DNA of 64,000 bases from Tribonema minus (taxonomy: Eukaryota > Sar > Xanthophyceae > Tribonematales > Tribonemataceae): NCBI GenBank assembly GCA_017506865.1, contig JAFCMP010000434.1, forward strand, positions 124,001-188,000, in the 5' to 3' direction. The notes under the pieces were generated by a model. The model was given only the letters and a program-made list of their open reading frames with translations. It made no database searches and was not told the DNA's origin. The first letter of the stretch is position 1; each line of letters opens with the position of its first letter. Positions 2,590-63,390 of the stretch are shown here, in pieces. A program made the translations under genes and the position numbers.

Positions 2590-5500
2590 ATGTTGCGGAG
2601 TCTTGGTGGCAGCGTGACCACCGCAGCGGCAAAGGCCGCCCGCTTGCCCCATGGAGCCTGCACTGCCGCTGCTTCCGCAGCCAACCTGTCTTCGGTCGCT
2701 GCTGAAGCCGCAAAGCAAGGCAGCGCCCGTCTAAACCTGGTGATACGGAGCTACGACGTGACGGCTCTCAACACATTTTTGAGAATGCTGCCAACAGGCC
2801 AAGGAGGTGAGTTACAGTGATACATTCGTGAAGATCGCAATCACGTGCATGCATGATCGCTTTATGGATGGATTACTTGCCCTGTGTTGGCAGGTGTGAA
2901 CAATATTTTTTGTGTAAGTAAACAGCTTCATGTACCTCATCACTTCCTCTTCAGTTTGCACGCAGCCGTGCCTGCACTGCAGGTGTTGTAACAAGCTCAT
3001 GAGCTTCTGCTGTACTCTGCTAATAGTGGTATCGGCTGTGATTCGTTGATCAACGTTGCTGGGGGCTTATCCATGGTAGCCACCACGCGCATGCGGTCAG
3101 GCTTGCATCGTGCATCAGGCGGCAGCACCACAAGCGGCAGAATCATTTCGCTCGTTGCATGATGGTGCACCCATTGGACGCTGTCACCAAGCGCATTCTG
3201 TACTACATTACACAACAGCAGCAGGATGGCTCACACTACTTGCACAACAGCAGCAGGATGGATGCTCAAGCGCTGCATCCGAGTCTCATATTCGGCCCTG
3301 GCCTCTTTTCTCGTGCGCCAAGAAGCCGTGGGAAACCTGGGTGCGGCACGGTCGTGCCCGACAGTATGTGCTCGACAGTATGAAGCGCAGGACCGTCAAC
3401 CGCCGAACAGCACTCACTTTCGCGACATAGATTCACGCGCTTTCACCTCAGGAATCCGCAGTGCGTTGAACGGCGGCCGCATGCATTCTGCAGTGCTGCT
3501 GCGCCACGCGGCCGAGAGACGCAACCACCGGATGGTGAAGCGCCTGCGAGCGATGATCCGATCGCGGGCCATGGCCTTTGCACGCATGCTCCCGCTGATT
3601 CTGGGCACCCACTCATGAATTTACGATCCTCTCGTGAATTCATGACATCAGTAAGCAAGTCCAGCGCCGGCCAGCAAACAGCCTCAAGTCTCAATTGTAT
3701 TACTGCCAAACCCATCCTCTCATTGGAAACGCAGCTCCTTGAATTCTCTCTCCGATGCACGATGTCTGCCGGCACGGGGCACCGAGCCGTAGCCCTAACC
3801 CTAACCTAACCCTTATGCTTCCCAAAGTGCTTGGCTGAAAGTCGCCACACTGCCTCAAGCCGCAATCATGCGACACGCCAGACTTATGAGTCAGTGAGGC
3901 ATTCATCCTTCCCTCTCTTTTCCGCCGAGCTCCGCAGTCATTGACTCATGCATCCGTGCACCTCATGCACGTTCACTCAAGCGCCCATTCACTCACGAAC
4001 GTGTTCACTCATGCATCCATCCGTTCGCTCATGTGCCCCCCCCCCCCCTCCTTCCCCCCCCCCACTCCCCCTGCAGGCAAGGGCATGGTGCGCCTCCCCA
4101 AGAAGATCAAGCGCTGGACGGTGAACCGCTCACCGCACGTGCACTCCAAGTCCAAGGAGACGTTTGAGCGCATCACGCACCGCGTGCTCATCCCGATCCG
4201 CGAGCCCAACATCGTCACGCTGCGCTGGATCACGGCGATCCGCGACGCCGGCATACACGCGAACGTCGCCTTCAAACTTGAAGTTGTGGGCGGCGGCGAC
4301 CCCGCGAGCGACGCCGCGGGGCGCCGCAAGCGCGACAAGTACACGCTGCGCCACTCCCTCGCGTACAGGCGTGCGCGCGAGAAGGAGCTCGCGGCGCTGC
4401 ACGCGGCGCTGCTGGCCGACGCGCGGCGCCGCATTGATGAAGGGTGAGCGCCCCCCCAAAGTTCAACCCTAACTTCAACTCTTACCAAGCCCTAACTTCG
4501 ACCCTTACCCTGGCCTGCAGTTGGCTAATGCACGCCGCGCTGCTCGCCGACGCGCGGCGGCGCCTCGACGAAGGGTAAGCGCTGCTGCTGCTGCTGCTGC
4601 TGCTGGCTGCTGCCCCCCAGTTCAACCTTTACTTCAACAATTATTCAGCCCTGACTTCAACCCTTATTCTGGCCTGCGGTCGGCTAGTGCACGCGCCGCT
4701 GCTCGCCGACGCGCGGCGGCGCCTCGACGAAGGGTGAGCGCTGCCCCCCCCCCCACACACAAGTTCCACTCTACCCTTTGAGCGTCGCATTATGGTCGCT
4801 CACTTAACCCTCACCCTGGCCCATAGTAAGCGACAAGCTTCATGGCGCTGCGCAGCGACGCGCAGCGGCGCCTCGACGAACGGTGACTGAGTAGGAATGA
4901 GGTTTTGGGAGGGGGACGGCGAGAGCGATGCTGCTCACCTTGGCCCTTGCCCTAACCTTGAGCTTGCGTGCAAAATGGCGCTGCACGCCAAAGCGTGGCG
5001 GCGTCTCGATGACGGGTGAGCGCTGCCCCCCCCCCCCCCCCCCCCCCTCAAGTTCAACCCTTACTTCAACTCTTAAGTTCAACCCTAACTTCAACCCTTA
5101 CCCTGGCCTGCATTGGCTAATGCACCGATGCTATTGTACAAATTCATGATGCAAGTGCTGATTGCTGCATTCCGCCCGCAGCGTGACGCTCGCGAGGGCG
5201 GACGCGCTCTCGCCGCGCCACACGCTTCTAATCCGAAGTACGGTACGCGATACAAGTTTGATATTGGTGCATTTGGCGCAGCGCAATTCTCTCGGAAATC
5301 GACGCGATTAATCAAACCCATGACAAAAGTGCCAATGTTTGCCCAGCGTGATGCTCGTGGAGGCGGACGCATTTGTACAACTACACGATGCCAGCGTGTG
5401 TTGCATTCCGCGCAGCGCACCGGAGGCGGACGCGCTCTCGCCGCGCCACGCGCTTCCAACGTACTTGATATTGCACCTGTCTTGCAGTACAAGACGCGAT

Positions 5501-6735
5501 ACAAGTGTCGATACTGTTGCATTCCACGCAGCGTCACCCTCTGGAAACCGACGCGACTGCTGCATTCCGCGCGCAGCGTGACGCTCGCGGAGGCGGACGC
5601 GCTCTCGCCGCGCCACGCCGACGCCGCGGCGTGGCTCGCGGAGCTCGACCGCTGGGAGCTGACGGGCACGCCGCCGCAGCCGGAGCTGCACCGCGTGGAG
5701 GCGCTCACGGCGCGCGCACGCGAGTACGCCCCCGTCTGGCTCGAAGCCGCCAATGAGCTGCTCGAGCAGCACCGCAGCCGCATCGGCGGCGGCGGCGGCG
5801 GCGCTGGCGATGCAGAAGCCGGCGGCGGCAGCAGCGGCGCGGCGGCGGCGGCGGAGGACGGCGCGGCGCCGCTGCTGTCGGCGGCAACGGCGGCGCTGCT
5901 GGAGGAGTGGGCGGCGCGCATCGACGCGTGGCTCGCGTTCCCGTCGCGCACGCCCGCGTGGCTGGTGGACCGCACGCTGTGGCGGCGCCTCGAGGCAGCG
6001 GTGCTCGAGCTCGAGCCGGACAGCGACAATGAGGAGGATGACGGCGCCGCCGCCGCCTCCGCCGCTGCGCCAACCGCTGCTGCTGCTGCCGCAGCAGCAG
6101 CGGCGGGGGGGCGCAGCAGCGCGGCGGCGGGGGACACCAGCGCAGCGGCGGCGGCGGCAGGGGGCGGCGGCGCGGCGGCAGCGGCGGCGGCGGCGCTCGA
6201 TGCCACGCTGGACGAGCTCACGGGCATCGACGCCGAAGTGTACGAGGCGCCCCGCAGGATTGACGAGCTGCAGGACGACTTGCAGGACGTCTGGGAGGAG
6301 GAGGAGGAAGAGTCGGAGTCGAGCGGCGGCAGCGGCGCGGGGGGCGGCGGCGTGCTGAAGGCGTCCGCGGGCGATGATTTGGACGACGGCGCGTGGGAGA
6401 AGGAGGACTTTGAGGCCGTAAACGATGACTTTGAGGCGGTGGATGAGGACTTTGAGGGCGTAGACGAGGGCGCTGATGCAGCGGATGCGCAGCAGACGGC
6501 GGCGGCGGCGGCGCGCAAGGAGGCGGCGGCGGCGGCAGCGGCGGAGGAGGGAGCGTGGGACAAGGACGCCGCTGCCGCCGACAGCTCGGAGGAAGGAGAA
6601 GGTAGCGCTGGCGAGTTCAGCTCGGGCGATGAGTTGGACTCTGACTTCCCGAGTGAGTCGGACGCGGAGGAAGGCTTGGATGATTGCGACGACGACGACG
6701 ACGAGCCGCGGCCGCTGCGGCCGCGCAAGCGGTAG
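2590..6735 (+). CDS. Mitochondrial-type ribosomal protein uS10 with long acidic C-terminal extension
   Basis: A small-subunit ribosomal protein of the uS10 (S10) family, probably mitochondrial. Three exons give one 580-residue frame: 2590-2806, 4077-4443 and 5577-6735, with GTGAGT and GTGAGC donors and phases 1 and 2 that match exactly. Residues 1-44 are rich in Ala, Ser and Arg with few acids, as in a mitochondrial presequence. The uS10 fold follows: [16 protein letters not shown] (48-63), [16 protein letters not shown] (79-94, the family hallmark) and [13 protein letters not shown] charged helix with [16 protein letters not shown] closes exon 2. Exon 3 adds about 385 residues unlike normal uS10: a helical stretch, an Ala/Gly tract (about 264-402), then an acidic tail with repeats of the type [16 protein letters not shown], ending in [15 protein letters not shown]. 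Usual family members are about 100-200 residues. Decayed copies of the exon 2 end and exon 3 start fill intron 2. The uS10 identity is strong; the compartment is inferred. Confidence 0.82.
2807..4076 (+). other. uS10m intron 1
   Basis: A GT-AG intron with a long C-rich tract before the acceptor (4035-4070). A 19-bp word ending in GCAGGATGG repeats at 3211 and 3242. A degenerate echo of exon 2 lies at 3376-3425, reading MKRRTVNRR against IKRWTVNRS in the real exon. Telomere-like CCCTAACC words occur near 3790-3810. No other gene is evident. Confidence 0.55.
4521..4574 (+). CDS. Candidate cassette exon of uS10m (duplicate of exon 2 end)
   Basis: A 54-nt block sits between an intact CTGCAG acceptor (ending 4520) and a GTAAGC donor (4575). 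Inserted between exons 2 and 3 it keeps phase 2 on both sides and would add 18 residues, including [15 protein letters not shown], a near copy of the exon 2 end [17 protein letters not shown]. It could be an optional exon or a relic with splice sites still intact. Transcript evidence is not available here. Confidence 0.45.
4521..5125 (+). repeat. Donor-side ladder: decaying copies of uS10m exon 2 end
   Basis: Five successive copies of the exon 2 tail plus the start of intron 2 follow the real junction at 4443, with spacing about 140-160 bp. Copy 1 (4521-4580) is intact, copy 2 (about 4681-4740) has lost its CAG acceptor, copies 3 (about 4830-4890) and 4 (about 4970-5030) are more diverged, and a partial fifth starts at about 5101. 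Each copy is followed by a C-run and TTCAACCCTAACTTCAAC-like text, showing that the duplicated unit spans both exon and intron. Confidence 0.8.
5160..5576 (+). repeat. Acceptor-side ladder: decaying copies of uS10m exon 3 start
   Basis: Four copies of the intron end plus exon 3 start precede the real acceptor at 5576. Each opens with a TGCATTCCGC..CAG-like acceptor and continues with CGTGACGCTCGCG-GAGGCGGACGC-like text. Copies lie at about 5164-5230, 5334-5390, 5400-5470 and 5516-5555. Together with the donor-side ladder they fill most of intron 2. Confidence 0.8.
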
Positions 6736-36450: not shown

Positions 36451-36505
36451 CAGGACGCCGAGGCCTGCACACATGTTCACACGTCCATGATGACGCGGCG
36501 TCAGC

Positions 36506-38078: not shown

Positions 38079-38170
38079 CTGTTTTCCAGGGGTCGGCCAC
38101 CATCTCAAGGCACACACGTGGGAGGACCTCCAGGTTTTGGGGGAGTGCACCTTGTCTCGTAAAGGCGGTC
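38079..38170 (-). CDS. Exon-like block of unknown family, array 2
   Basis: A 92-nt block between a GGTTCTTAG acceptor and a GTGAGC donor, reading TAFTRQGALPQNLEVLPRVC then LEMVADPWKTG. The copy at 40551-40636 reads TAFSRQDMMPQLLALLCSLC and uses a GCAAGT donor; the copy at 35758-35850 keeps LRVCLEMVVDLETG. Conservation of both splice ends suggests true exons, or relics of them. The family is unknown. Confidence 0.3.
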
Positions 38171-39674: not shown

Positions 39675-39785
39675 GTTTGACCCCAACGCTAACCCTAACC
39701 CTCTAATCGGAACCCTAACCCTAAACCTGACCTGATCGGAACCCTAACCCTAAACCTGACCCAAATCCTAACCCTAACCCTAGCT
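39675..39785 (+). repeat. Telomere-like words in a tandem duplication
   Basis: A segment around GATCGGAACCCTAACCCTA is present twice in tandem, followed by more CCCTAA words. Another CCCTAA-type tract lies at 39967-40035. Confidence 0.6.
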
Positions 39786-46273: not shown

Positions 46274-46736
46274 TTATACCGCGACGGAGGGGTTAATTGC
46301 CGGTGGCCTGGGAAATGCGCCAGAGAGCGCGAGCACCGCGAGACAGTGCACAGCAAACAGGTACAGCAGGAGGGCGAGGCGGCGCACGCGGTCGATCAGC
46401 ACCACCCTGCAGCACAGCAGCAGGGCCTTCTCGGGTGGCGCCAGGCATGAGCCCCAGTCCTGGGGAGCGTCGAAGAGGAGGTTTGGGGGGGGGGGGACAC
46501 AGGGGAGGGTACGGATGAGCGTTGTTGCACACTAGCCGGCAGTTGGAGGGCAAGATGAGCAACAAGGGCACGATGCGATTGCTGTGCGCCAGCAGTCCTC
46601 CAAGGGTGTGTGACGCGGACACAGAACACTTGTGCTGAGCATGCACAAAGCAAGGAATGTGCCTAACGCAGTGCTACACTACACTCAGACGAGGCGTGCT
46701 ATCTACGGACAAACATGACCGTTGTCAAGCAGAATG

Positions 46737-46780
<44 letters not shown>

Positions 46781-49700
46781 GCTCTGTCTGGTGATGCCAG
46801 ACGTTCCGTGAGCACGCCGGGGGGGGGGGGGGGAGGGGTCAATGCAAAAGGAGCGCTGCCGCGACGGGCGCGAGAACATCAACTTCAATTCCGTCTCACC
46901 TCCCCCTGCATCAGGAGCGCCCTGAAGGGGTCCCTCTCCTTGTTGTACAGGTCCGCGTAGCGCGCCTCCGCTGCGCGCGACTCCTGCGCCTCGCGGTCGC
47001 CCATGCGCGATCCGCCCCTGCCGCCGCCGCCGCCGCCACGCGATTGCAGGCTGCGCAGACGCCGGTACAGCGCCAGGTTGTCGCGCTGCACCTCCTGTTG
47101 GCGGCGCGCGGCGGAGGGGGTGCACGTCACACAACGGTCACGCTGTGTTGGCTTGCTTGCGCAACTGCTTTCAAGTTGTGTGCGCGTAGGGCTGTGCGTG
47201 CGTCACGCCGCGGCTGAAGGGCGCTGGCTTGCGTGTGAAACCGTCTGCAAGCTCTTTTGCACTTGTGTTTGCATAGGGACGGCAGCGTGTGTTGGTGCGT
47301 AGACACGTGCTCGCGTGCGTGTATACTGCCGTGCAGGTAGAGTGCAGATATGGTACAGGCATGGTACAGAGACAGTACGAATGCCGGCGTATGCGTGCTG
47401 CACCACCTGCCGCCAGACCGCCTTCGCAGTGGCACGAGGAGTTGTTGTTACAGTGGGGTTTAACCCTAACCCTAAAGCGTGCATGTGCGTTCATGACCCT
47501 GAGCGCTGCTGCGATGAGCGCGCGAGGCCATTTCCACCCTTGATGCCGGGACGCAAGCCAAAAGAAGTGCAGTTCAGTGCAAGTACATCATGAAATTTAT
47601 CAGTTCACCCCTGTGGTGCATTTGTCCCCATTGGCGAGCGCTGCAGCCGCTAGTAGCGGCAGCACACACGAGGATCATGCCTCACGACACCTGCAGCTGC
47701 TGCTGAGCATGTGTCACGCACCTGATTTTGGTGCTGCGGCGGCTGCTCAAATGGTGGAGCCGGCGCATGCAGCAACCTCAAAGCCATGCCAAAAACCATT
47801 GAAACGTCCGCAGACTAGTCACCCCCACAGACGCTCTGCAGCGCGAGTTCCGCCTCGGTGCACACGTGTCGTGCAACTGCGTGCGAAGCGCGATGCTGCC
47901 GCCCAAGATTCGATCGAGACTCACACCTGCTGCTGAGCATGCCACGCACCTGGTTCTGCTGCTGCAGCTGCTCAATGGTCGAGCGCTGCAGCGCGAGCTC
48001 CGCCTCCTTGGCGAGCGCCTGCTTGCGGAAGCGGCTGCGCTGGCGCTGCACGGCCGCCAGCATCCTGTCCGCCGGCGAGCAGCCCTCCAGGATAGCGTCC
48101 TGCAGTTGTATACGTGCAGCAGCGGCAGCACATGCGATTTGTCAGCAGACAGCAACTTCATCGCATGGCAACAATCTTTGCGGCACAAAGCAGGCAGCGT
48201 CCGGCTGTCGTCAGACGGCAGCGACCCGGTCACACTTTCAAGTTCAAGTTGAAGTGCCTGACAGCGTCACGCACCGCAGCGCTCGGCCTTCACTGGAGCA
48301 CATGACGGGACTACTAGTACTACGGACTCCTGTCACGGACGCGCAAAGCAGAGCACTGCCACACAAGCGGCGCATAGCGGTGGGCTCACCAAGCATCGGT
48401 GGAAGTTGAGAGGCAGACAGACATGCAAGCCTCAAAAGCACAGACTCCTTTCCGCAGATTTTCTGTTGCCCCTCCCCCCCCCCAACGACAACTTGTCACA
48501 TTCAACCGCTTCAAGTTCAAGCATCAGCACCAGGAAACATGTAGAGCATTGAAGATCAATTTTGATGTTGGCACATTTGTGACGCACATTACTCGCATTT
48601 CCGCTCCCAGATCCGCATCATAATTTTTTCGCGTGCGCCAAGGACGGCGTCAACCCTCGATCCCAGCCCTGAAATTGAACCATATATACATACCCCCCGT
48701 CTCCTCCAGGTCCGACAAGGCATTGCCGCCGCCATTTTCCTCGTACACTTCTTCAAAGTACCAACACACATGGAAGCAAACGTCCTTCAAAGCCCACGCA
48801 ACGCTTCCGACCGTCGCCATACATTGCACCACGCAAAAAAAATTGTCATTGCACACTTTACCCTCCACACGAGCCTTGCAAGGCTCGTTACCCTGGCCCT
48901 GACCCTGACCCTAATCCTATACATGTACCCCGCAATGCGCACTACACCAATCCCAAATGTACGTACCTCCCCCTCCTCGAGATCCGGCAACGCGCCCCCG
49001 CCGTCGTCCTCCGCACCACGCTGAGCGCTGCTTCGCCGCCGTGCAAGCCCCCCCAGTAGCGCCCCTAGCCCCCCCGAGGGCCCAGAGGTGCTGCCCGCGC
49101 GCGCCTGGTGTGACCGCAGCATTATCCTCCCCGCCTCCACGACCTGCGTGTGCGCGTGTGTTCATGAATTTCCTGATTTCATTCATGGAATGAATGAATG
49201 TGTTTGGTGCGGGCAGCATGATCCTCCCCGCCTCCATCTGCGTGCGCGCGTGCGTTCATGAATTTAGTCGTGATTTCATTCATGGAGTGAATGAACGAGC
49301 CGGATGCGACTGCAGCATGACCCTCCCCGTCTCCACGACCTGCGTGCGTGCACGTGCTCATGATTTCAGTCATGATTTCATTCAGGGAATGAATGAACGC
49401 GCCGGGCGTAACCACAGCATGATCCTCCCGCCTCCACAACCTGCGTTTGCACATGCGTTCGTGGTGATATGTACAAATGAGTCATGAGAGTATTGTTGGA
49501 AACCATGTAGCGGCGCCTCGGGCGCATGCATGCCAATGTGTCCTCCCCGCCTGCACAACGTTCTGCATTGCGCAGGACGGCATGCACATGCGATCATGAA
49601 TGAATTCATCTGCACGTGACATGCGCAGGCCGGCGTGCACACCTGTTCACAATCCAATTCATGCACATGCGACCAAGCCTGCATGTATGCGTGCTCTATC

Positions 49701-52700
49701 ACCTGTGTGCGCATGCGTATTCATGGATACATTCACGTTTGCATACAGGACCAGTCCTGCGGACCGTTCCATGCATGCGCACTGATGCCGATGACAAGGC
49801 CCTGCCCAAGCCGTGCTAGATCGCGTTGGCCTCCTTGACCATATGTTGAAGAGGGCCATTACAAATTAATGTGCGTCGGGTGGCCTGCTGAAAAGTGGTA
49901 ATTCCGCGCATGGCCTCTTGCAGCTCATGTGTGTACAGCATGTGCCTCAGTGCCGCGCATCGCAACATCAATTTCGAGTTGCAACTCCCTGCTGAGCGTT
50001 GGCGCGCTGCGCAGCGCCGCGCACACTCCAGCAAGGAGGACTGACCGGAACATCAACGGTCAGTCAAACCTCAACTTGAAGTTATTCACCTGCTGAGCAT
50101 TGGTGAGGTCCTGCTCCAGCCGCGCCACGTCGCGCCGCGCGTCCTCCAGCGACGCGCGCAGCAGCGCTCCGTCCGCGCGCGCGCGCGCGCCAGCTCCGCC
50201 TCCGCCTCCGCCACACGCGCGCGCGCCTGCGCGACCTCCGCACGCAGCCGCCTGCGCCGCGCACACAGCACGACGGCAGCGCTCCATGATAATTCATGAA
50301 TCTCAATCAAGTCTTTTAGGACACTTGTATTTCAGAATACTAGATGATGCGAGCGCTGCCACATGTGCGCGCGCCTGCGCGACCTCCGCGCGCAGCCGCC
50401 TGCCCTCGCGCCATGGCAGCGAGACGGCATACACAGCGCGACGGCAGCGCTCAGTCAGATTTCATATACATCAAAGTATGACGATTGTTAAACAATTGGC
50501 CATTACTTACTACTGGATTTCGCGAGCGTTGCTGCCCTCGCGCGCGCCTGCGCGACCTCCGCGCGCAGCCGCCTGTCCCCGTGCGATGGCAGCGCTACGT
50601 GAGTACATCATGAAGAAAATCATGAGTATTGATCATACTCATGTATATTGACCAAGTTTCGTTAGCATCTATTCCTGGGAACACTCGGTTATGCGAGCCC
50701 TGCCACCCTGACGCGCGCACGCGAGACCTCCGCGCGCAGCCGCCTGCGTGCGCGCACAACGCAATGGCAGCGCTCGGTGAGAACACATAACTGTTGATTG
50801 AAGCTTTTGGTATTTCCTTAACTCCTCACAGGCCGATTTCAAGTGAGCATCGCCATGGTGGCATGCATGGCCGGCCGCCTGCCCGTACACAGTTTGACTG
50901 CGCAGTCAGGAGCCACGTTGCTTCACGGGGCAGTGGTTTCAATTTTGCACCCGCTCCCGAGAACAGAGAAAACTTGATGTGAATGCTGCCACGGTGACAG
51001 TGGTGGAGCAGGTCACGCACGCACAGCATAAGGGCAGCGCTCACTAAAGAGTTCATATGAGCACCCTGCCACGTGACAACAGGCTGTCGGCAGCACTCAG
51101 CAGCGTTCCGCGCGCGCTCTGCCGCGGCGATAGCGTGCACAGTCCGCCGCCTGCCCGTGCTGCGCAGCGGTGGCGCTCCGTGAGGTGTAATGCGAGCGTT
51201 GCCGCGCGGTGACAGCGCAGGCCCTGGACGCTCTGACCACGCCGCATTGAATGCGCTCATGGTCCGTGACTCTCCCGTTGCGCGGCAGTGCACATACCAG
51301 CCCCCTAACCCTAAATGCAACCCTCACTCTCACCCTGAACACCGCAGGCGTCGCAGCCGCCTTGCACGGCAGCCACTTTGACTGACTCCTGTGTACCTCG
51401 GCTCCCCGCTTCTGCTCATTCCTGAGCACTGCTGCAGACCACTGTAAACAACCCTGGTTCTGGCAGCGCCTCGAGTCCTGGCTTTCCCTCTTGGGCGGAG
51501 CACTGCTGCAGAGAGGTGACTGCTGAAAGACCGCACGCGCTGCGGCCCCATCTTGGGATCTGGAAGCCTCTGCAGCGCCAGCTCTGAACGGTCCATGCAG
51601 CAGCGGCCTGCGGCGTGCGCTGCCACGACAACCCCCCACCCCCGCACCACCCCCTGACCGCTCACAGAATCAGAACGCTATACGTACATACCTGCCATAC
51701 GTGGCCGCCCACGCGTCCGCGCTCCCCGCCCCCGGAGTCCCCCCGGCCTCGTCCCCTTGCGCAGCACCAGCAGCACCGCCAGCGGCAGCAGCGGCGGCAG
51801 CGGCGTCCCCCCCCGCCTGCAGCGGCGCATCCTCCTCCTCCACGCCCTCTAGTATCCTGACCTTGTCGCGCAGCTCGCCAAGCTCCGCGCGCGCCGCCGC
51901 CAGCGCCGCGCCGCCCTGCTGCTGCGCCGTAGCGACTGCCGCCTGGCGAGACGCGTGAAAGCATTTTGTGCTGGGTTAGGCAGGGTTGAATGTGTTGTTG
52001 AGATGTGCAAGCATTTTGTGCTGCTATGTGTGATGCTGCGCGACGCCTCGAGACACGGCGGTCGGCGCGCTGCAAGGCGGCAGTCGTCGCCTGGCGACAC
52101 AGTGCTGCTGCGCTGCGGCGACGGCGGCCTGGCGAGTTGCGAGGAGGCGAGCGAGCACTGCTTGCACGTTAGGGGCAACTTAGCAGCCCGGCGACACATG
52201 CATGCATTTCGTGCTGGGTCACGCAGGCCTCCGTATGCAATACTTTCCATGGAGGTGTGCGATGTGGCCCCCTGCGGCTGCGCCGCGGCAACAGTTGCCT
52301 GGCGAGACGCATGCTCGCGCGCAGAGTGCTTAGAGTAGATAGCAGTCTTGCACCCATTGCTCTGGGTGAGGGTCTGAATGAGGGTTATAACAGGAAGCGG
52401 CGCGCTGCCGCAGCCGCGCCGCCCCGCTGCCGCGGCGAGTGCCGCGGCACATACGCGCAGCGCTTGCACGTCAGGGGGAAGTTACCAGTCTTGCAACCAT
52501 TGCTTAAGATTGGGGTGAGGATTAGGGTCAAGACAGGAGGGGGCGCACCGCCGCAGCCGCGCCGCCCTGCTGCTGCGCCGCGGCGACTGCCGCCTGGCGA
52601 CGTGTGCAAGCATTTTGTGCTGCGTTAGGCAGGGCTCGGTGTGACATTGACGCCTGCAAGCATTTTGTGCTGAGTTACGCAAGGGCGAAGTATCAAGAGA

Positions 52701-55700
52701 TGAGGAGCACATGCAAACACATTACCGGGAGCACTCTGCGAGCACCCGTAGGCAAAGAGGTTTAGGGTTAGGGTTAGAGTTGGCATCCTGCTGCACCTGA
52801 GCGACACCCGTTTAGAGAGCGAGAACGGCGTTCAGGCTGACCACCTCAAATTTTGGTGGCGTCTCTGCAAAGCTGCTTCACATTCCACCACACTGCAGCT
52901 GGCATGAGCTGCGGGTAGCTCAGCACGAGCTGAAGCCAGCGCTGCTTCACGCTGGTGATACCATGTGAAAATCAACAACCACATACAGTTGTGAGACCGG
53001 CGCGTGCGTGCACGTCAAAGCCTGAATTCATCGCTCCTCGACTTCAGCGATGCCATGTGCGCTCGTTGCTTTGACGCCGCCAGACCTGGTGCTGGGGAGT
53101 TGTGCCAGCGCCGCTCCACACATCAGATACCTTATGGATACCATGTAGAACCAACGCGCTTGGTTGTGTATGTGAAGTCTTTTGACTACTGTGGATATGA
53201 TGGCACTGTTTGACTCGTGGCCAATGACTGCAGCAGCGGCGACCACGGTTATTGGTGGAAGGCACTTGCGGGGAACCATCCCTTGTCATCAAGAGCTCCA
53301 CGATCTTCTGATTCGTTTTCATGTACCGTACTTCATAGCATGCTGCGATCGTCGCCCTCGCAGCCAGCACGGCGCTAGGCCCTGCTGCTGAGCAGCGGTT
53401 TGGGTTAGGTTCACCGTTGACCACACGCTGCCATCTGCATCCTGTACCTGCGCTTGCTGCAGTTGCTGCTGCAGCGCCGCGTCTCGCGAGCGCGCCGCCG
53501 CCTCCGCCGCCGCCGCGCGCTTGTCTGCCTCCACGGCCACGGCCTGCGCAGTTCACCATTTGAACACACATGGCAAAACGCGCGTCAATTGATTGATCAT
53601 CAGCAGACCCGCTGATGGCTGGGTGAAGTTGTGCGTCCACATGTAATCGCGCGCTTGTCTGCTTCCGCGGCCCACCGCCTGCGCATGTGACCATATGCAC
53701 CTTGCAATGCATGTTTATTGTTATGTACGCATTTGTCGATGGCTGAATGTGGTGCCATCGCACTATCATATGACAACTATTGTCATCAGGCATATCTGGT
53801 ATCACTTCTGGAAGTCACCGCGGCTTTGCCAGTAGCTTCACCATGATTTTCTTATTATGTCAGTGACAGGTCAATGATCGGTGCTGCGGATGCATGTACG
53901 GTGCTAAGGTGAATTATGATCGCGGCGCTGACATTAACACTAGACACGAACAGATTGCATACTCAGCTGCAAGACTGCAAAGGACCTCTAGGGTCTAGGT
54001 GTATAAGCTCCTGCAGATACATTGCGAATGCCAGACTATATAGCAATTCTGCAGTAACAAAAATGAGCGCCCTATAGACATCACTTGGTCTGGCAGAGAA
54101 CAAAGAGGCACAGGCGAGAGGTCTGCATAAATGAAAACCCCTTTATTGATAGTTCAACACAATCAGGAAAAATAGAAAAGGTAGCACCATAAGTGATGAT
54201 TACCTCGGAAAACTTGATTTCCCAAATTTGCGAGTTCTAAACAAATTGAAACAGATATGGGCGAAGCGTGTCTAAAAACTTTTGAACAACAGATAATTTA
54301 AAAATCAAACATGAAAAAAGCATTAGCAGGAAACCAGCATCGATGCAAGAACTGCCACCTCCAGCCTCGCCCGAAGAATCAACCGAACCTCTTAGCAGTG
54401 ATGTGTACTTCAACTATTGAAATTGGATTGGCCCACAGCAAAGCAACAAGTTGACACTTTCTCCCTGCGCCACAGCAAAACGCGATAAAAGTTGACTTTC
54501 TGCAGCGCCCGCAATATAGAGCTCTACGATCTTTTGATTCGTCTTCATGACAATTTCAATAGGAAAAGTGCCCAACTCGATCAGTGGAAGTTGAACTTGC
54601 CTCTGCGCGCAGCGCCCTATCGACGGCGCTGTCCCTGTCGTCGCGCAGCTGCCCAGCCTCGCGCTCCAGCTGCAGCAATGAGGGCAAGGGCTAGGGTTAG
54701 CAGCAGCGCTCAGCGCCACTCCCACAGGGCTGAGGAACGGTGCGCCAGTCCCATGTTCACCGACTACAGAGACAGACCGCGCAGTGGCAAGTCTGGTGCC
54801 AGCGGCCGCGGTTATTCCAGCTCCAATACCGTATGTTGAAGCTGTTGCAGTTACAGAGCGCTGGGGCGTCGGATGGGCCGGTGGCCTGACGGCTGCGTGT
54901 GCCTGCATTCCTGGCGCATCCGCGGCCGCGCCGCCCCGCTGCCGCGGCGAGTGCCGCGGCACATACGCGCAGCGCTTGCACGTCAGGGGGATGTTACCAG
55001 TCTTGCAACCATTGCTTAAGATTGGGGTGAGGATTAGGGTCAAGACAGGAGGTGGCGCGCCGCCGCAGCCGCGCCGCCCTGCTGCTGCGCCGCGGCGACT
55101 GCCGCCTGGATACCGCTTGGGCATTAGGTTGTAAGGGGGACGAATCCCGCCGCTTGCTGCGAAAAAATTAGAGTGTTCAAAGCAGGCTTAGGCCGTTGGA
55201 TACATTAGTATGGAATGAGATAGGGTCCTCGATGCAGAGGTGTCAAAGCCCATTTTGTTGGTTTGCCCGCTGAGGCAACAATCGACAGGGATAGTTGGGG
55301 GTATTTGTATTCTCAGAGGTGAATTCGACATTTTGCAGTGGTAGGCTCCATTTGCAATGGCAGTCTCCGATTCCTGTCAGGGGTAGGGTCAGCATCGGGC
55401 AAGTTGCGGCACAGGCGGCCGGCCGTGCGCTCAAGCGCAATGGCTGAGCGTCACCAGGAGAAGATTCTATAACTTCAACGCTTGTGAGCTGGAGCCTCTC
55501 GCTGCAGCTGCAGCAATGAGGCGCGCGATCATTGTGGTGACAGTGCTCAACAGCAATTTGCTGTGCTGCCGCAAACTCAACTTTCGACACTCTCCCTGCT
55601 GCAGTTCTAGTCCCTAATTGACGTTCGCTGTTTGAGCCTCACCCTGGCCGCAAGCCCTGAACGCGCAGCGCTAGCCCTACGCCCTACTCTGGCCATCTAC

Positions 55701-58700
55701 CGTGACCCTCATCGTAAAACTTTTAAAAATGTGCGCACAACAACTGTACAACTTCAGGTCTTACTTCTACCCCAACCCTGAATTATATTTTACCAACCTT
55801 TACGAGCTGCTGAGACGTGCTGGCACCCTCATCGCACTGACACTAGCACAACACGTGCGCACAATATCAGCTGTAGCCCTGGCCATACCCTACCCTAACC
55901 CTGTTTGCGACCCTGCTTCTTGATGAGCTGCTAAGACATGCCATCGCACTAACCCTAAATGTGCACGCAGCCGTAACCCTACACTAACGCTATGCCAGAG
56001 CCTACTCACCTTGATGAGCAGCTGAGACATGCCTCGCACTACACCTGAATGTGCACACAGCGGTAACCCTACTCTAACGCAATGTGAGAGCCTACCTAAA
56101 TATCTTGATGAGCTGCTGAGACATGCCAGCACCCTCCTCACACTAACCTACATGTGCACTCAGCGATAACCCTACTTTAAACGCAATGCGAGAGCCTAAC
56201 TACATACCTTGATGAGCTGCTGAGACATGCCGGCACCCTCCTCGCAGGCGCGCCGCGCCCGTGCCTGCAGCCACAGCAAACGAGCGCATGCACGCAAAGC
56301 AGGCAGTAAACGTGAATGCACAGCAGCTCTGGATGTGTGCCAACGGGTTGAATAACGCATGGCCAGCGATGCGGCGGCGGTGATAGGCGTGACTGATGCA
56401 TGCCTGCCGTTGATGTCCCTGATCCAAGGCTTACCTACTCAAAGCCAAGCCAGGCACATATTTGATAACACATGTGACCGTCTCTGTAACATGTGAGCAG
56501 CGGCAGAACTATATAGAAATCAATACTTCCAAGTGCTTCAAGTTGAGTAAACTTGCGTGCATACCCTGAATTATGTGCCATACCCTGACATATACATACC
56601 CCGATGTCCAATCATACCTACACATATCCTAGGCTCTCACCTCGGCCTCCATCAGCAGCGTCTCCCGCGAGTGGAGCGCGTCCAGCTCTTGCTGTTGGTG
56701 CAGACAGCACGCATGAAGCAGCAGGGGTCAGGGCGTGAGTGGCCTGTCTCATTGCTCATGATCATGAACATGACTCATGAACATGATTCATGAACATTGG
56801 GTATGCTGTTGGTGCAGACAGCACGCACGAAGCAGCAGTGATTGGAGCGTGAGGTGTGAGCGGACCGTGTCGTTGTGCATGATCATGAACACGATGCATG
56901 AACATGATTTGTGAACATGATTCATGCACATAATTCGGATCACCGGCGATGATGCCAATTTGGGCACGGATTGCGCTAGGCAGCCCCCCAGCCTAGATCA
57001 AACGTAGCCAAGACCTGGTCTGCCCAGTCATGGTCCAACCCTAGAGTTGAAGCTAGGACAGACCCTTGTTGTTTAGGGTGGTTAGAGTTACGGCGTTCGC
57101 AATGATGGTGAGAACGCATGCAATAATTTTCCCTCCACTCCATGTTCTTCCTTCTTTTCCAAAGAAAAACCAGCAGATGGTATGCATACAACTTCACGTG
57201 GACAGACAAGTGTACTTCAAAGTGTACTTCAAAGTGTACCAGACACAACGACATGTGTGTGTGCACCTGTGAACATATATGAGCTGGGTAGTGATGCACG
57301 CACTTGAAGTACGCATTCCTGTCGTTGTCAGATATCCAGCAGTAAGTTCACATGCAACTTCATGTGTGACTCGCCTATGCGACGAAAGGAGAGCGCACCT
57401 GGAATGCTCTCACACCCGTACTTGAGGTTCATGGCTTGTCGTGAGGAAACCAGCAGAAGTGCAGGACTCGGAGCTCAACAGGACCAGTGAGTGATCATGC
57501 AGGACAGCTTGCCATCACCTTATTCACTGCCCATATACTGCGAATAGATACGCACGATCAAGACGAACTTGGACGTGCTTCAGCGCATGAGCGCCGCCCT
57601 GAACTCCGACGAGGACGTACAGGCGCTGACCCCAAGTACTCTGCTCGGTATCGTAAACGACATGCCGGACGAATGCATAGCTCGACTGCTGGAGGTCGGG
57701 CCGGCGACCATCCTGGACGACGACCTCATCAACAGTAAGTGCGCTCATGCGCTGAAGCACTTACTATTGATGAGGTCGTCCAGGACCTCCAGCACTCGAG
57801 CTGTGCATTCGTCCGGCACGTCGTTTACGATGCCGAGCAGAGTAGTTGGGGTCAGCGCCTGTACGTCCTCGTCGGAGCTGCCTTGATGGCCAGCTCATGC
57901 GACAGCGAAGTAGTAAGTGCTTCAGCGCATGAGCCCGCCCAGCCTTTCAGCGCGAACGCCCCCAGCACGGATCTCCCGTTCTCGAAAGAACGGAACGCTG
58001 AGCGTTCGGCACGCGGCGACCGCTTGATGGCGACGGGCAAATAGTGCACTGTGTCTGCTCACCTCAAAAACGAGGCGGCGCGTGAGAATGGCAGTTACGT
58101 GGATCGACGGTTACAAAAATCTCGGTTCATTTTAGACTGACGGATCGACAGATTGTCAAATTTTGGTTTGAATTCCCTTCAACTTTGAAAAGGATGGGTA
58201 ATGTAATGTATCGAAATGCGTAACCATTCCAAGGGTGGGTCGGCTTGCAAAACCACTCGCAAAACAAGAGCAGCTCAGCTGAACCGTTAAGCTTGAAAAC
58301 ATATTTTTGTTCGATTTCGGCGCCCGTGCAAAAACAGGCAACTTCAAATTCAGCTTCACATGTGACTCGCCTGCGCGACGGCCAGCTGCGCCTTGAGGGC
58401 GCCGCGCTCGTCGTCCGCCTGCCGCTGCAGCCGCAGCAGCCGCGCGCCCAGCTCCTCCTGCGCGAGCGCAAGGCGACAGCCATACACGCAAACTCACATC
58501 AGTGTTGAGCGATGCTGCCTGGCCCTAAGAGACAGTATGTATATTTGCGCACCAACAGCACGTGGGCTGCCTCAACATCAGCGACCTGCCGCTGCGAACC
58601 ATGGAGGGAGCGCCAGCTGGGCGAACTGCTCTCTCAGCATCCCTCTAAACAAAGGTTGCGACCGCCGCAACGCCACCTTCAGGGTGCGGCATCCTGCTGG

Positions 58701-61700
58701 TATCCTGGCCGCCCCAGGGGGGACTGCCCAGCCACTTGCAGGCTCCCTGCGACCCTTCTCAATGTGTTCCACAGGGAGTGTTCCACCCTGGCCGGGTGCA
58801 GAGATTCTCAGATGCGCGGCGCCGCCAAAATCTGACAGTGACCGCGCGTTGAAATTTCCGCAGGGTCTACTGTAGGTGCGCCAGTTACAGCCACGGAAGT
58901 GCATTGGGGGGCCTGTTGCCACAGATGCTTGAGCGCCAGCTGCACACGGTGCTCAGACCCACCCCCCGCACCACGACCCCCAGGGGGGTTCTGCGTCTTC
59001 ACACCCACAGTCATATCCCGGGGGGGCGGGCTGCCCACCACTAGCCCCCAGCAGGCCCCCCTGAACACGATCAGCACGGGGGGTGTCCCAGCCTAAAATG
59101 CACACACCTGCATCTGCCTGGCCTGCCTCTCGGCCTGCGCCAGCGCGTCCGTCAGCTGCGTCTCCCGCAGCGCCGCCGCCGCCGCCGCCGCCGCGATCGC
59201 CGCTGTGTCCACCGGCAGCGGCGATTTCGCTGCCGCCGCCGCCGCCGCGGTCGCCGCCGCTGCTGCCGCGGCGGCCTGCTGCTCGGCGTGCGCAGTGGCC
59301 TCCGCCGCCCGCTCCTGGAGAGGGGGGAGGCGTGCATTGTGGGTGATTGGAGCGTGGCGCTCTTGAGTCTAGGCCTAATTCCAACCACAACCCTAGGACA
59401 ACCCTCACCTTGATCCCGAGGCAGGCGGTGGCGCAGCGCGCGCGTGTGCCTTTGTGAGCATCTGATGCGATGATGTGCGCACCGCGCTTGATGGTCCCTG
59501 TTAATTGAAAGCGAGCTCGCTAAGGCGGACTGCAGCCAGATGCCGACGTGTTGGCCAACACAGAAAATGTCCAGCGACAAGTTGTGGCTGCTCACGGTGC
59601 ATCAACTGACTCCTGCTGCTGCTACGGGAGCACATGCCAGCAGCAGCAGTTTGCAGCATGTATGCCACGATGACCTGATGGCTCTGATGCCATCACAATG
59701 TGTTTGCACCTGCGGTAGTTGGCGTTTGTGCCACGCAGGCCCCGTACAGGCATCGGAGCGCTGCTGCAATGTCAATGAGCACTGCTGCAATGTACTAGCA
59801 CTGAGGAGCACTTGCGCATGCAACAATGGTGCCAGGCACTGAGCATTCTGGAAACAAACCGCAAAGCAGCTGCGTCTACTCCTGTATCAGTACAGACGCT
59901 TCCATACCAATGTTGTTGGGCACCGGGCCACCACCACTGTGTCAAGTCAATCTCTGCTGCGTGCCTGGGGACTAAGGTGCAATGCGCATGTCTTGAGTTG
60001 GAGGTTGAGCGCTGCTCACCTTTAAACCAAAGTCATTGGATACCAGGACACCGCTTATGTTTCAGGTTGACATCTACTGCATGCCTGGGGACTGAGGTGC
60101 AAGGCACGTTCCTTGAAGTTGGTGGTTCATTTTTTGAAGTTGGTGGTTGAGCGCTCACCTCTGCAGCGTCGAGCTCCTTCTGCAGCACGTCCCAGGCCGC
60201 AGCGTGCGCGTCGATCAGCGTCGGCACCTGCACACAGAGCATCCACGACGCGCGCAACGTCAACACTTGAAGTACCACGTGTACTTTGAGACCCTACGTG
60301 ACAACACCAGTGATGGCAATGATCGCTCAGGGCCCATGACAAGCAGCCTCTAGACCTGTGTCGCGGTGCACCACACCTGAAGTATACGCAACAGCAGAAC
60401 TGCTGCCCTGCAGGCAGGAGCGATGCGTGCCACCGTGACAAGCGGCCAGCGCCATCTTGTGCGGCGCGTCACCTTTGAAGTATACGCAACGGTCGCCGGG
60501 CGCCGCGGGCGAACGCACTTCCTGAGCGGTGTTGCAGTTACATACGTACGACATTACGTATTGCATGCCACCGTGCAGCACTGGGGGCGGCATGAGCTAT
60601 GGGCATTAATTAGCATTTGACGCCTTGCACCATCACTGCACGAGAGATGCGTGTGTGTGCGTACGAGATGAAGCCTGTGGGCTGCGCAGAGCTTCTTGAA
60701 CTGTCGTCAATAAAATTGTGGAGCGCTGCCGCAGGGTGGCCTGTGCCGCTGCTGGGCGCTAGCGCCCTTGCGAATTGCCGCTCGCAACTGAACATAACTA
60801 ACACTTGTTGTCACAGATTACTACCACAGTGTCGACTGCGTCAGGGCTACCGGCGACGCTGAACAATCAAAGACGAACCATCAGCGCTAGAGTCGGCGCC
60901 GCGCATGGCAGCTTGTGCAGCACCAGAAACGACGCCTCGCCTTATCTTCACCCTACATAACCCTAAATTCTACTCCGGTCACACAAGCACAAATGGCAAC
61001 TGTCACGGCAGTGCTGGCTGCGCCAGGGTCAGCAGCGCTGCTGAGCAATGGGGACTGACCATCAGCAGCGTGTCCGGCACTTCGAGCAGCAGCTCGTGCA
61101 GCACCACGTAAATGCCGCCTCGCCTTTCGCTTACTCTACCCCTTACCCTAGTTATGACCCATTTACAGTGCTGAGCACTGACCATCAGCAATGGGTCGCG
61201 CAGCAGCTTGCACAGCTCCTCTTACCCTAACCCTAACCCAGAGCAACGTCGCTGAGCACTGACCATCAGCATCCGGCGCCTCGCGCAGCAGCTTGTACAG
61301 TGCCGCAAACGCCGCCGCGCCTTTCGCTGAGTACTTCCGGCGCAGTCTACTCAGTTGCCCCATAATCACGGTCGGAATGTGTGGTGTGCAGTTCTATTGC
61401 TTACGCTCCACCCCAAAAGCGTTCAAACGATGCTGAGCACTGACCATGAGCAGCGGGTCCGGCGCCTCGCACTGCAGCTCGTACAGCTCCTCCGACCCTA
61501 ATCCTAACCCAGCGCCCTGTGCTGTTCAAGCCACTGAGCACTGACCATGAGCAGCGGGTCCGGCGCCTCGCGCAGCAGCTTGTAGAGCGCCAGGAACGCC
61601 GCCTCGCCGTGGCGCGCGCGCTTCGTCAGCGCGTCCACCTCCGACTTGAAGGCGCGCACCAGCTCGCCGCCGCCGTCCTTCAGCGCTGCGTCGCCGCAGT

Positions 61701-63390
61701 CATTCAGCAGCGCCTTGAAGGCGCGCGCCTGCGCAGCGAGCGCCTTGCGCCCCTCCAGGCTCGACTCCTGGTTCCCCGCCACCTGGGATGCGCGCGGCGT
61801 TCGCTTGAGGATGCGTTGTGCGCGCAGTGCTCAAAAGGATTTCTGATAGTTGCAGTCGCTGAGCAGCGCCTTGAACGCGCGCGCCTGCGCAGCGAGCGCC
61901 TTGCGCCCCTCCAAGCTCGACTCCTGGTTCCCCGCCACCTGGGATGTGCGTGGCGTTTGCATGAGAACGTGGTGTGCGCACGTGTGTGTGCGGCAGTCAG
62001 ATGTGGCAGATCCAAACATAAACTTGCAGCTTCCGACAACGGGTGTTGACCAACACACGCAGATGTTGTACAGTGGTTAGGCGGTCTTTTTGTTGCTGCA
62101 GCGGGTCAGCGGCGCCCCAAAGTGCGAGTGCGCTTGCCCCGCCAGCGGCGGCCTACCGTGCGTGCTGGACTCCGACGCGCTCAGAACCCAGCGCTCAGCA
62201 GCAGTGCAGCGTGTGCTGTGCGGTACATCTAGAGCTCTTGCGTTCAGACACGAGGCATTGACATATACGAACTCGTCCATACGCACAACGGATGCTAGTT
62301 AACACATCAGTACACGCAGCAGCGCTCCAAGCGTGCGCCGTCGTGCCGCCGCCGTCCGCGAGGCTTGGCTCCAGAGTCTAATGGCGATGTGGTCAGCATG
62401 GCGCAAGTTCCACGAAATATGGGCACATAGGGGTGTCACACTGCGGCGCACACGCAGTGGCGGCATGACGCGCATGCGCGCGCAGCGCACGCACTGAGGC
62501 ATGCCCCTTGCTGACGCGCCCTCAGACTGTTGGCCAAAGCTAACAGCGTCTGCCTCGCGCATGTGTACATGCATTCATTGTGCTGCACTACATTGTCATG
62601 GCTTCTGACGTGTTTCGCAACAAGGTGATCGGCGGCGAACGGAGCAGGCACTCAGAGGGTTAGGTTTACGCAATTTTACTGCTACAATGATGTGTGCTGA
62701 ATTGTAAAAAGGCATGAGGCGGTGCATCACGAGCACTGCGTCGCTCGGGTCTGTACATGTGAATGTCGGCAAGCTTGCAGCTGCATCTGAAAGCACCTGT
62801 TTTTCAACAGAAATATATGTTCAATAAAAGCAACTTTGATCTTTGGCGAGAGCTATCATGGGTCAAGTAACTGGAACAGATGGGCTGAGAGTACATAGGC
62901 AGGAAGTGGCTGTTGAGGCAATAAGGCCTGAAGGCAGGACGTGCTTGAGCTAGCAGCAAGTACCATGTTTGAGCGCCTCTGTCATTAATCCCTGAAGCAA
63001 TGAGGCCTGACGCCCATCAGGTGCATATGACCATGTAGTGTGTGGTGACAAGTTTGCAAGCAAACGAGTCATTTTCGTCCCTAGACGACCCTGCAAGTGC
63101 AACATGATGTTGTGCTCCGTCATCTTCGTCAATCTCGACAGGCACAGCCTCAGCGAAGGCACGATGCAGCATCTGCTCATTGTACGAAATGATTTCTCAC
63201 ACACACACACCTGCAGAGCCTGCTCGTCAAGAGCGTGCCGCAGGTTATCCAGAGACACCTCCTCCCATAGCTGCAATGCACGCCTCGCCTCCTCAGAAGC
63301 AGCCTCAAAAGATGTTGCAGCAGCCACCAGCGGATCGCCGTCGAGCTCCTGCTCCGCCGGCTCAGGCAGGATATCTTCTGCTGTTATCAT
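46274..63390 (-). CDS. CASP: CASP, Golgi coiled-coil membrane protein (CUX1/CASP family), 15 exons
   Basis: CASP is a tail-anchored golgin-type protein of intra-Golgi retrograde transport. Exons in transcript order: 63211-63390, 61546-61782, 60159-60227, 59108-59314, 58371-58457, 56641-56691, 56208-56264, 54601-54669, 53448-53543, 51692-51942, 50090-50251, 48967-49143, 47950-48099, 46900-47094, 46274-46459. They give about 724 residues; the family usually has about 680. Evidence: exon 1 ends LWEEVSLDNLRHALDEQALQ and exon 2 begins VAGNQESSLEGRKALA, the N-terminal signature, with EVDALTKRARHGEAAFLALY and EAPDP after it. The middle is heptad-rich coiled coil. Exon 10 has ELRDKVRILEGVEEED, exon 13 AAVQRQRSRFRKQ, and exon 14 DNLALYRRLRSLQS with YNKERDPF. 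The last exon has PPEKALLLCCRVVL and a single membrane segment (LALLLYLFAVHCLAVLAL). Two donors are GC (exons 5 and 8). Exon 11 needs one more base in its GC run to stay in frame. The family is certain; small middle exons are less so. Confidence 0.88.
46738..46779 (+). repeat. (CAG)14 microsatellite in last CASP intron
   Basis: Fourteen pure CAG triplets on the plus strand, read as CTG in the CASP transcript, about 120 bases downstream of exon 14. A poly(G) run follows at about 46820-46833. Confidence 0.85.
47700..47868 (+). repeat. Ladder copies of CASP exon 13 end
   Basis: Two decayed copies of the exon 13 3' end and its donor. One is at about 47700-47765 (GCTGAGCATGTGTCACGCACCTG against GCTGAGCATGCCACGCACCTG at the real junction). 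The other is at about 47830-47868 (CTCTGCAGCGCGAGTTCCGC). Confidence 0.7.
48695..48745 (-). repeat. Ladder copy of CASP exon 12 end
   Basis: On the minus strand it reads ENGGGNALSDLEET against EDDGGGALPDLEEGE at the end of exon 12. It keeps an open frame and a GTATGT donor-like site, so it could serve as an alternative 3' part. Confidence 0.65.
49200..49600 (+). repeat. Ladder copies of CASP exon 12 acceptor
   Basis: Four copies, about 100 bp apart (near 49213, 49312, 49416 and 49540), of CATGATCCTCCCCGCCTCC followed by a CTGCGTG-type acceptor (minus) and TTCATGAATTT..GATTTCATTCATGG. The real junction is at 49143. Divergence rises with distance. Confidence 0.8.
50340..51190 (+). repeat. Ladder copies of CASP exon 11 acceptor
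   Basis: Up to five copies of the exon 11 start and its acceptor (GCGCGACCTCCGCGCGCAGC then CGCCTG) lie at about 50345-50420, 50525-50600, 50690-50770, 50870-50890 and 51060-51185. They are followed by CGATGGCAGCGCT-type text each time. The first three are about 170 bp apart. The real acceptor is at 50252. Confidence 0.8.
51957..52680 (+). repeat. Ladder copies of CASP exon 10 acceptor and flank
   Basis: Copies of the exon 10 start (GCGACTGCCGCCTGGCGA) recur at about 52075, 52124, 52290 and 52585. The intron word GCAAGCATTTTGTGCTG recurs at about 51957, 52007, 52203, 52608 and 52657 with small changes. The real acceptor is at 51943. Confidence 0.8.
52400..52600 (+). repeat. 200-bp segment duplicated at 54.9 kb (copy 1)
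   Basis: It runs from GCCGCGCCGCCCCGCTGCCG through CATACGCGCAGCGCTTGCAC to CGCGGCGACTGCCGCCTGG. It is nearly identical to 54925-55110, although the copies lie in different CASP introns. Confidence 0.8.
53820..54420. other. AT-rich island in CASP intron 8
   Basis: About 600 bp clearly poorer in GC than its surroundings, with A-runs and AAATTGAAACAGATATGGGC-like text. No open frame of note, no terminal repeats seen. It may be an inserted element or simply older intron sequence. Confidence 0.5.
54785..54890 (+). pseudogene. 18S rRNA fragment (530 loop/V4 start)
   Basis: It matches the conserved core of nuclear 18S rRNA: GCAAGTCTGGTGCCAGC, then CGCGGTTATTCCAGCTCCAA and GTTGCAGTTA. Several changes at normally invariant bases (for example GCGGCCGCGGTTATTCC) show that it is not functional. 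It lies in CASP intron 7, antisense to the gene. Confidence 0.85.
54925..55110 (+). repeat. 200-bp segment duplicated from 52.4 kb (copy 2)
   Basis: A near copy of 52400-52600, lying between two 18S rRNA fragments where the variable V4 region would be. Confidence 0.8.
55158..55264 (+). pseudogene. 18S rRNA fragment (after V4)
   Basis: Matches the 18S stretch AAAAAATTAGAGTGTTCAAA then GCAGGCTTAGGCCGTTG and CATTTTGTTGGTTT. It is collinear with the fragment at 54785-54890 in rRNA order and orientation, so both come from one 18S-derived copy. Small deletions mark it as a relic. Confidence 0.85.
55490..55520 (+). repeat. Ladder copy of CASP exon 8 acceptor
   Basis: CTCGCTGCAGCTGCAGCAATGAGG echoes GCGCTCCAGCTGCAGCAATGAGG at the real exon 8 acceptor (54669). 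Confidence 0.6.
55797..56140 (+). repeat. Ladder copies of CASP exon 7 end and donor
   Basis: Four copies of CTTGATGAGCTGCTGAGACA-like text at about 55797, 55915, 56006 and 56102, spaced about 95-120 bp, leading to the real exon 7 end at 56208. The copy at 56006 keeps a GTGAGT donor on the minus strand; the copies at 55915 and 56102 have lost theirs. Telomere-like CCCTAC words sit in each unit. Confidence 0.8.
56803..56940 (+). repeat. Ladder copy of CASP exon 6 acceptor flank
   Basis: TGCTGTTGGTGCAGACAGCA and the following CATGATCATGAACA words repeat the sequence just upstream (minus) of exon 6 at 56692-56790, about 120 bp away. Confidence 0.7.
57345..57400 (+). repeat. Ladder copy of CASP exon 5 end and donor
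   Basis: CATGTGTGACTCGCCTATGC GACG-type text echoes CACATGTGACTCGCCTGCGC at the real exon 5 donor (58371), including the unusual GC donor. Confidence 0.65.
57575..57935. repeat. Long foldback (inverted repeat) in CASP intron 5
   Basis: Left arm about 57582-57741 and right arm about 57755-57900 are reverse complements, with an 18-bp or so deletion in the right arm. The centre has AGTAAGTGC and GCACTTACT around a 14-base loop. The word GTGCTTCAGCGCATGAGC occurs at 57575, inverted in the centre at about 57741, and again at about 57918. The left arm reads as protein (SDEDVQALTPSTLLGIVND then MPDECIARLLEVG) on the plus strand. The family is unknown. It may be an inverted duplication of an exon from elsewhere or a foldback element. 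Confidence 0.75.
58530..58920. other. Unassigned GC-rich block in CASP intron 4
   Basis: Open on both strands for about 110 codons, with Pro/Arg-rich text. No family or splice support. It may be an insertion, as it lacks the ladder pattern of its surroundings. Confidence 0.3.
59930..60145 (+). repeat. Ladder copy of CASP exon 3 donor flank
   Basis: A segment of about 118 bp (TGCGTGCCTGGGGACTAAGG to GGTTGAGCGCTGCTCACC) is repeated next to exon 3 (TGCATGCCTGGGGACTGAGG to GGTTGAGCGCTCACC). The copy keeps a GGTGAGC donor on the minus strand. Confidence 0.75.
60895..61500 (+). repeat. Ladder copies of CASP exon 2 end and donor
   Basis: Up to five copies of GCTGAGCACTGACCATCAGC then GCGTCCGGCGCCTCG-type text and CAGCAGCTTGTACAG, at about 60905, 61030, 61155, 61250 and 61430, approaching the real exon 2 end at 61546. 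The nearer copies are the better preserved. CCCTAACCCTAACCC words lie between them. Confidence 0.85.
61846..61965 (-). repeat. Duplicate of CASP exon 2 start with acceptor
   Basis: About 120 bp nearly identical to 61690-61800. It includes the CATCCCAG acceptor and the codons for VAGNQESSLEGRKALAAQAR AFKALL, but no matching downstream exon part. Splicing into it would give an alternative exon 2 start in the same frame for about 37 codons. Confidence 0.8.

Follow-up and report, generated by a model that had tools for sequence, protein, structure and literature searches.

Mirage-like copies of exon edges in the introns of a CASP homologue and a uS10 gene

Repeats at the edges of exons are known from lancelet genes under the name of mirages, for which Canestro et al. 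2002 is reportedly cited. Lancelet mirages are minisatellite-like tandem repeats that span exon-intron boundaries, 5' as well as 3', and they affect Adh3, the globin genes BflGb6 and BflGb9, PGBD5 and troponin C (PMC3087553; PMC3902484). PGBD5 and troponin C are presented there as further cases (PMC3902484). Units of 150-160 bp are given for globin genes, and the ranges quoted are 60-160 bp in globin genes and PGBD5 and 10-72 bp in Adh3 (PMC3087553; PMC3902484). Many units, but not all, retain the splice signal, and RT-PCR suggested undisturbed splicing (PMC3087553). Concerted evolution within the array and length polymorphism between haplotypes also belong to the mirage picture.

Tandem duplication at boundaries has also been described elsewhere. 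In a potato RdRp gene a single tandem duplication across an intron-exon boundary created a new intron (PMC4974935). The duplication crosses the boundary, as at the locus described here, but it is one event that made a new intron, whereas repeated events here would enlarge existing introns. Human genes in segmental duplications carry variable internal tandem repeats at exon-intron boundaries, the units measuring 9-30 and 62-126 bp where introns are concerned; these likewise alter intron structure, but they are recent and variable, lie in primate-specific duplicated genes and can form novel introns (PMC2812944). Intron gain by AGGT tandem duplication shares with the present case the supply of splice-site copies by tandem duplication, although there an exonic unit becomes a new intron, while the units here already hold sequence of an existing intron.

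The window, i.e., the whole 64,000-nucleotide stretch of DNA analysed, contains a CASP homologue at 46290..63390 (minus strand), the joined exons of which match Pfam CUX1_N (6e-26) and CASP_C (1e-26). The anatomical features of mirages that lend themselves to testing are found in this window. Minisatellite-like tandem units span the boundary, most clearly at exons E11 and E12, at the 3' edge of E2 and in a uS10 gene; the copies at E5 and E7 are single and distant. Both 5' and 3' boundaries are affected, unit size is similar, several genes are involved (two of the three tested in the window) and many units, though not all, keep AG or GT (29 of 33 scored copies). The differences are that copies here are 72-94% identical to the edge, as against 81-100% among BflGb6 units, that one intron (uS10) is laddered from both ends, and that the host appears not to be a lancelet, judging from a GC content of 56%, a GC3 of 0.86 and a distant NOL6. 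Lancelet GC is near 41%. The sequence-only reading knew of no named system that matches; lancelet mirages do (PMC3087553; PMC3902484). We estimate a probability of roughly three in four that the arrays belong with mirages, as minisatellites anchored to exon edges. We would class the case as mirage-like arrays of another lineage, and we make no claim that ladders outside lancelets are unreported.

The exon limits of the CASP gene were set from reading frame, phase and splice sites. The phases agree, and 14 exons are firm, all on the minus strand: E1 (63211-63390), E2 (61546-61782), E3 (60159-60227), E4 (59108-59314), E5 (58371-58457), E6 (56641-56691), E7 (54601-54669), E8 (53448-53543), E10 (51692-51942), E11 (50090-50251), E12 (48967-49143), E13 (47950-48099), E14 (46900-47094) and E15 (about 46290-46459). 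A candidate exon "E9" at about 52951 was dropped, as it has no usable in-frame donor, and E8-E10 is counted as one intron. Donors are GT except at two of the 13 introns, where E5 (58371) and E7 (54601) have GC; the copy of the E5 edge in the intron preserves the GC donor. In E11 the reading frame slips within a run of GC dinucleotides (50110-50180), probably through a sequencing or assembly error. The GC content of the window is 0.563 and the GC3 of CASP is 0.857 over 13 exons.

For each of the 26 CASP junctions, the flanking exon and intron sequence (at most 60 bp of each) was compared with the adjacent intron, with 200 dinucleotide shuffles per edge as control and with copies required to cross the junction. 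Junction-crossing copies beat the shuffle maximum at 10 of the 26 edges: the 5' edges of E2, E7, E8, E10, E11 and E12 and the 3' edges of E2, E5, E12 and E13, that of E12 weakly (35 vs 29). A second count, based on 60-bp windows centred on the junction, a score of at least 40 and a 1.5-kb radius, also gives 10 of 26, on nine of the 14 exons, with the E6 5' edge in and the E12 3' edge out. The junctions that pass are both edges of E2, the 3' edges of E5 and E13 and the 5' edges of E6, E7, E8, E10, E11 and E12. At the other 16 junctions no copy scores at least 40 within 1.5 kb; the donors of E3 (31-32) and E12 (30-35) fall below that score. Sequence generated by a Markov-1 model of window composition never scores above 25.

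Exon and intron parts of one edge are present together in the copies, and identity to the edge is 72-94%. All copies found are direct; inverted copies occur at none of the 26 CASP junctions, where the reverse-complement maximum is 31. The copies with splice sites that the sequence-only reading had seen beside most CASP exons are real and far beyond chance, and the self-comparison it had proposed as a check recovers the main ones without anchoring on junctions. Its count of at least ten of fifteen exons becomes 9-11 of the 14 firm exons, and there is no clean ten of fifteen. Its lists of affected edges have to be redrawn under the 14-exon numbering, the E7 copy belonging to the 5' edge and the E12 3' copy being weak.

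In order along the gene, a copy of the E2 5' edge with its acceptor lies at 61852..61979 (minus strand, as are all CASP copies; 128 bp at 90% identity). Beyond the 3' edge of E2 there is a ladder of five copies with donor at 60858..61490 (61421-61490, 61225-61350, 61171-61219, 61033-61124 and 60858-60941). A single copy of the E5 3' edge, including the GC donor, is at 57344..57419. The copy of the intron end before E6 (56804..56918) reaches only 2 bp into the exon, the copy of the E7 5' edge (55487..55521) is short, and a copy of the E8 5' edge is at 53648..53707. The ladder of the E10 5' edge (52103..52684) consists of copies at 52103-52136, 52270-52313, 52400-52445 (AG lost) and 52543-52634, with intron-side remnants at 52183-52227 and 52649-52684. 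Three copies of the E11 5' edge form a ladder at 50358..50783 (50358-50429, 50539-50614 and 50712-50783). The array at the E12 5' edge (49213..49463) has three copies of about 102 bp each and a decayed remnant at 49541-49559. Also present are the weak copy of the E12 3' edge (48680..48742) and a copy of the E13 3' edge with donor (47694..47760). The intron between E5 and E6 also holds a perfect 24-bp inverted repeat (57743-57766 / 57911-57934), inside longer ORF-like stretches.

From one copy to the next the distance is mostly about 50-230 bp. This brackets the spacing of 95-170 bp given earlier, which does not extend to the outlying single copies, at about 840 bp (E7), 996 bp (E5) and 3.2 kb (E10). 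Some copies are less than a complete head-to-tail unit. Even copies of high identity can break off abruptly before the unit is complete, among them the E2 5' copy, where 128 bp match at an offset of 156, and the first E2 3' copy (70 bp at about 103). In addition, a 196-bp block of the E10 ladder (52402-52597) has been copied 2.5 kb upstream to 54914..55109 (minus strand), in the intron before E7, where it is 97% identical. Plain tandem duplication leaves the moved block and the short far copies of E5 and E7 unexplained. The abrupt copy ends and the moved block suggest that break repair with filler contributes. An artefact of assembly or haplotype merging might be read from a block 97% identical at two places and from the frame slip in the GC run of E11. 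The copies, however, are 72-94% identical to their edges and therefore not assembly duplicates; each departs from its edge by 6-28% through substitutions and gaps of its own, unlike what assembly errors would leave. We regard an artefact as barely credible.

A second laddered gene, for uS10, is encoded at 4077..6735 (plus strand), 40 kb from CASP and beyond the region that the earlier reading covered. The solved structures related to it are 30S S10 of bacteria and uS10m of mitochondria. Exon A (4077-4443) and exon B (5577-6735), both on the plus strand, agree in phase. The intron between them (4444-5576, 1133 bp) consists mostly of two ladders, copies of exon A first and then copies of exon B, so that the ladder pattern extends to a second gene. 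The 3' edge of exon A is copied four times, always with GT intact, at 4529..5036 (plus strand; about 4529-4585, 4697-4754, 4846-4886 and 4979-5036), and the 5' edge of exon B four times, always with AG intact, at 5160..5541 (plus strand; 5160-5221, 5341-5370, 5394-5451 and 5513-5541). The two edges score 57 and 84; when the intron was resampled 500 times for each under a Markov-1 model, the highest scores were 29 and 33. The stretch at 4979 might be taken for a first exon but is the fourth donor copy. The exon A acceptor, tested one base off the exact site, has no copy (score 28).

NOL6 (929-2464, minus strand) lacks copies at the three junctions tested (scores 20-24). It is a distant homologue: the match to the solved Nucleolar protein 6 (7mq8), which we take to be the human protein, covers 292 residues and scores 127.5 bits. 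Over CASP, uS10 and NOL6, 12 of 32 junctions are positive and two of the three genes are laddered.

Short-range repeats are denser in 4398-5125 and in the CASP introns than in most other parts of the window, a satellite aside. This satellite (28795-33621) has a unit of about 117 bp in 41.5 copies with 89% matches. Also present are a dozen long diverged direct repeats (10212-19812, 24682-28783 and 35679-41831), 67-80% identical at an offset of about 2.0-2.6 kb, as if one array of about 2.3 kb units had been split by later insertions. Inverted copies of 1.9 kb (19811-21702 / 22101-23993) are 98.8% identical and lie in long ORFs without a Pfam match that look retroelement-like. Telomere-like CCCTAA-type motifs are frequent, e.g., CTAACCCTA occurs 38 times on both strands of the whole window, satellite left out, as against 0.1 expected. 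A search of viral_contigs with the CASP C-terminus, the long retroelement-like ORF and the satellite found no relatives, and nothing matched in Rfam at gathering thresholds.

The splice dinucleotide is intact in all 29 junction-crossing copies (12 donors and 17 acceptors; 58 of 58 bases), set in flanks that are 72-87% identical, which could be taken to mean that selection maintains the copies as functional decoys or alternative splice sites. This set was, however, itself selected by alignment across the junction. Nine further hits do not cross it: four have lost the dinucleotide, as decay would predict (two of these being one loss duplicated afterwards), four end before reaching the junction, and the remaining one, at E3, retains GT. 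With the losses counted, 29 of 33 copies retain the dinucleotide (P = 0.002 if the neutral expectation is 0.64, 0.075 if it is 0.76). Outside the 33 are the E3 copy, the four junction-short hits and the uS10 copy at 5513, which keeps AG although its alignment in the scored set does not cross the junction. Frame-breaking gaps are also present in copies. The apparent signal of selection, strong when judged by the 58 of 58 bases, became weaker once non-crossing copies were included. There is no firm sign of selection on the decoy sites, we do not claim it, and a functional role of this kind is very unlikely.

Copies nearer the real junction had been thought usually better preserved. By local-alignment identity this holds in four of the six ladders of at least three copies (E2 3', E11, uS10 3' and, marginally, E12) and is reversed in E10 and uS10 exon B. 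In a wider multiple alignment the copy closest to the junction ranks first in just two of the six (E11 and E12), so the trend depends on the measure. As regards concerted evolution within arrays, four of the six ladders are mostly star-like around the exon, i.e., copies are closer to the exon than to each other; in the E10 and uS10 3' ladders some copies are mutually closer (0.80-0.88) than to the exon.

Copies within 1.5 kb are found at 10 of 26 CASP junctions. Intron positions farther than 60 bp from a junction pass the same threshold in 16.8% of cases and exon interiors in 14-15%. When all 26 junctions were shifted together in a circle, at least 10 passed in 0.9% of 1696 shifts (P = 0.009 at the main setting). 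Over 20 settings of window, radius and threshold the shift P ranges from 0.002 to 0.32, with 13 of 20 below 0.05 and seven not, and in the four settings with 90-bp windows it is 0.07-0.15. GC-rich intron windows repeat more (0.39 of 246 windows at a GC of at least 0.70), and a control with GC-matched intron windows gives P = 0.024.

Random intron duplications with no preference for edges may give the same appearance, as those containing an edge would be recognisable for longer next to a conserved exon. Because copies of a conserved edge may simply stay visible longer, a null of uniform neutral tandem duplication was simulated with exons and splice cores conserved (a first grid of nine settings with 16 runs each, later 40, 60 or 200 runs). 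With the null matched to the 0.17 of interiors, the junction mean is 0.10 and 10 of 26 is reached in none of 200 runs. Larger deletions allow it in one of 40 runs, and growth from short introns in three of 40 (200-bp), six of 40 (100-bp) and none of 40 runs. Interiors in these settings averaged 0.23-0.45, well above the observed 0.17, and under every uniform setting the mean junction fraction is below the interior fraction, the reverse of what is observed. Duplication without edge preference does have in its favour the intron-only tandem arrays of CASP (55796-56246 and 59906-60127), the origin of the excess in one gene with 26 junctions, and the seven of 20 shift settings that are not below 0.05. 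Taking both sides together, we consider it unlikely.

The best-fitting edge-biased model tried, with 0.7 of events at junctions (40 runs), gives 0.42 at junctions and 0.15 in interiors. It overpredicts exon-interior copies (0.31 vs 0.15) and underpredicts copies more than 450 bp inside introns (0.08 vs 0.19), and is therefore a rough guide only. CASP edges hold more copies than the uniform null allows. This is one gene, with which the uS10 intron agrees and NOL6 does not, and the edge excess rests on few genes and 26 CASP junctions. It is conceivable, and we offer it tentatively, that this lineage has genuine hot spots of local duplication at its exon-intron junctions, perhaps owing to transcription-tied breaks or slippage or to the sharp step in base composition at exon edges, and that two-ended laddering is a main route of intron growth.

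In mirage-like arrays of this kind, a stretch of about 80-170 bp straddling an exon-intron junction would be tandemly duplicated. The intron-side copy would be spliced out along with the intron, and the change would thereby be tolerated. More units could then be added by slippage, unequal exchange or break repair, and the copies would decay at the neutral rate. In this way introns would lengthen from one or both ends and retain a trail of former splice sites. We infer the DNA mechanism, the tolerance by splicing and the absence of function for the copies. The patterns in the DNA itself support the view that intron sequence near exons was probably built in part by repeated local duplication across edges, leaving splice-site copies. 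Growth of introns by tandem duplication across exon edges, as first proposed, is favoured by the direct copies, the two of three genes and the junction excess in CASP, but not by the copies that are short or far, the moved 196-bp block, the junctions that lack a copy (16 in CASP, three in NOL6 and the acceptor of uS10 exon A) or the seven shift settings that are not below 0.05.

The uniformly direct orientation of the copies found speaks against random templated insertion. Algae and dinoflagellates are known to carry introners, and introner or transposon insertions carrying splice sites may in principle have made these introns. The same element would then be expected at many sites, whereas within the window the copies are edge-specific, matching the host exon's own edge and differing between introns, and are inverted at none of the 26 junctions. 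Frequent 9-mers within the window are only simple repeats and CCCTAA-type motifs; among 9-mers counted at least 24 times, those over-represented are homopolymer, CCCTAA-type, GCG/CAG and GC repeats, and no shared mobile-element end was noticed. An origin from introners or transposons is highly improbable.

In summary, mirage-like arrays appear to place the lancelet pattern in a second, distant lineage. They pose the question of whether exon edges are duplicated more often than other sequence or merely retained more often. In the ladders one can read how introns lengthen, and how a gene may tolerate decoy splice sites that are almost perfect.
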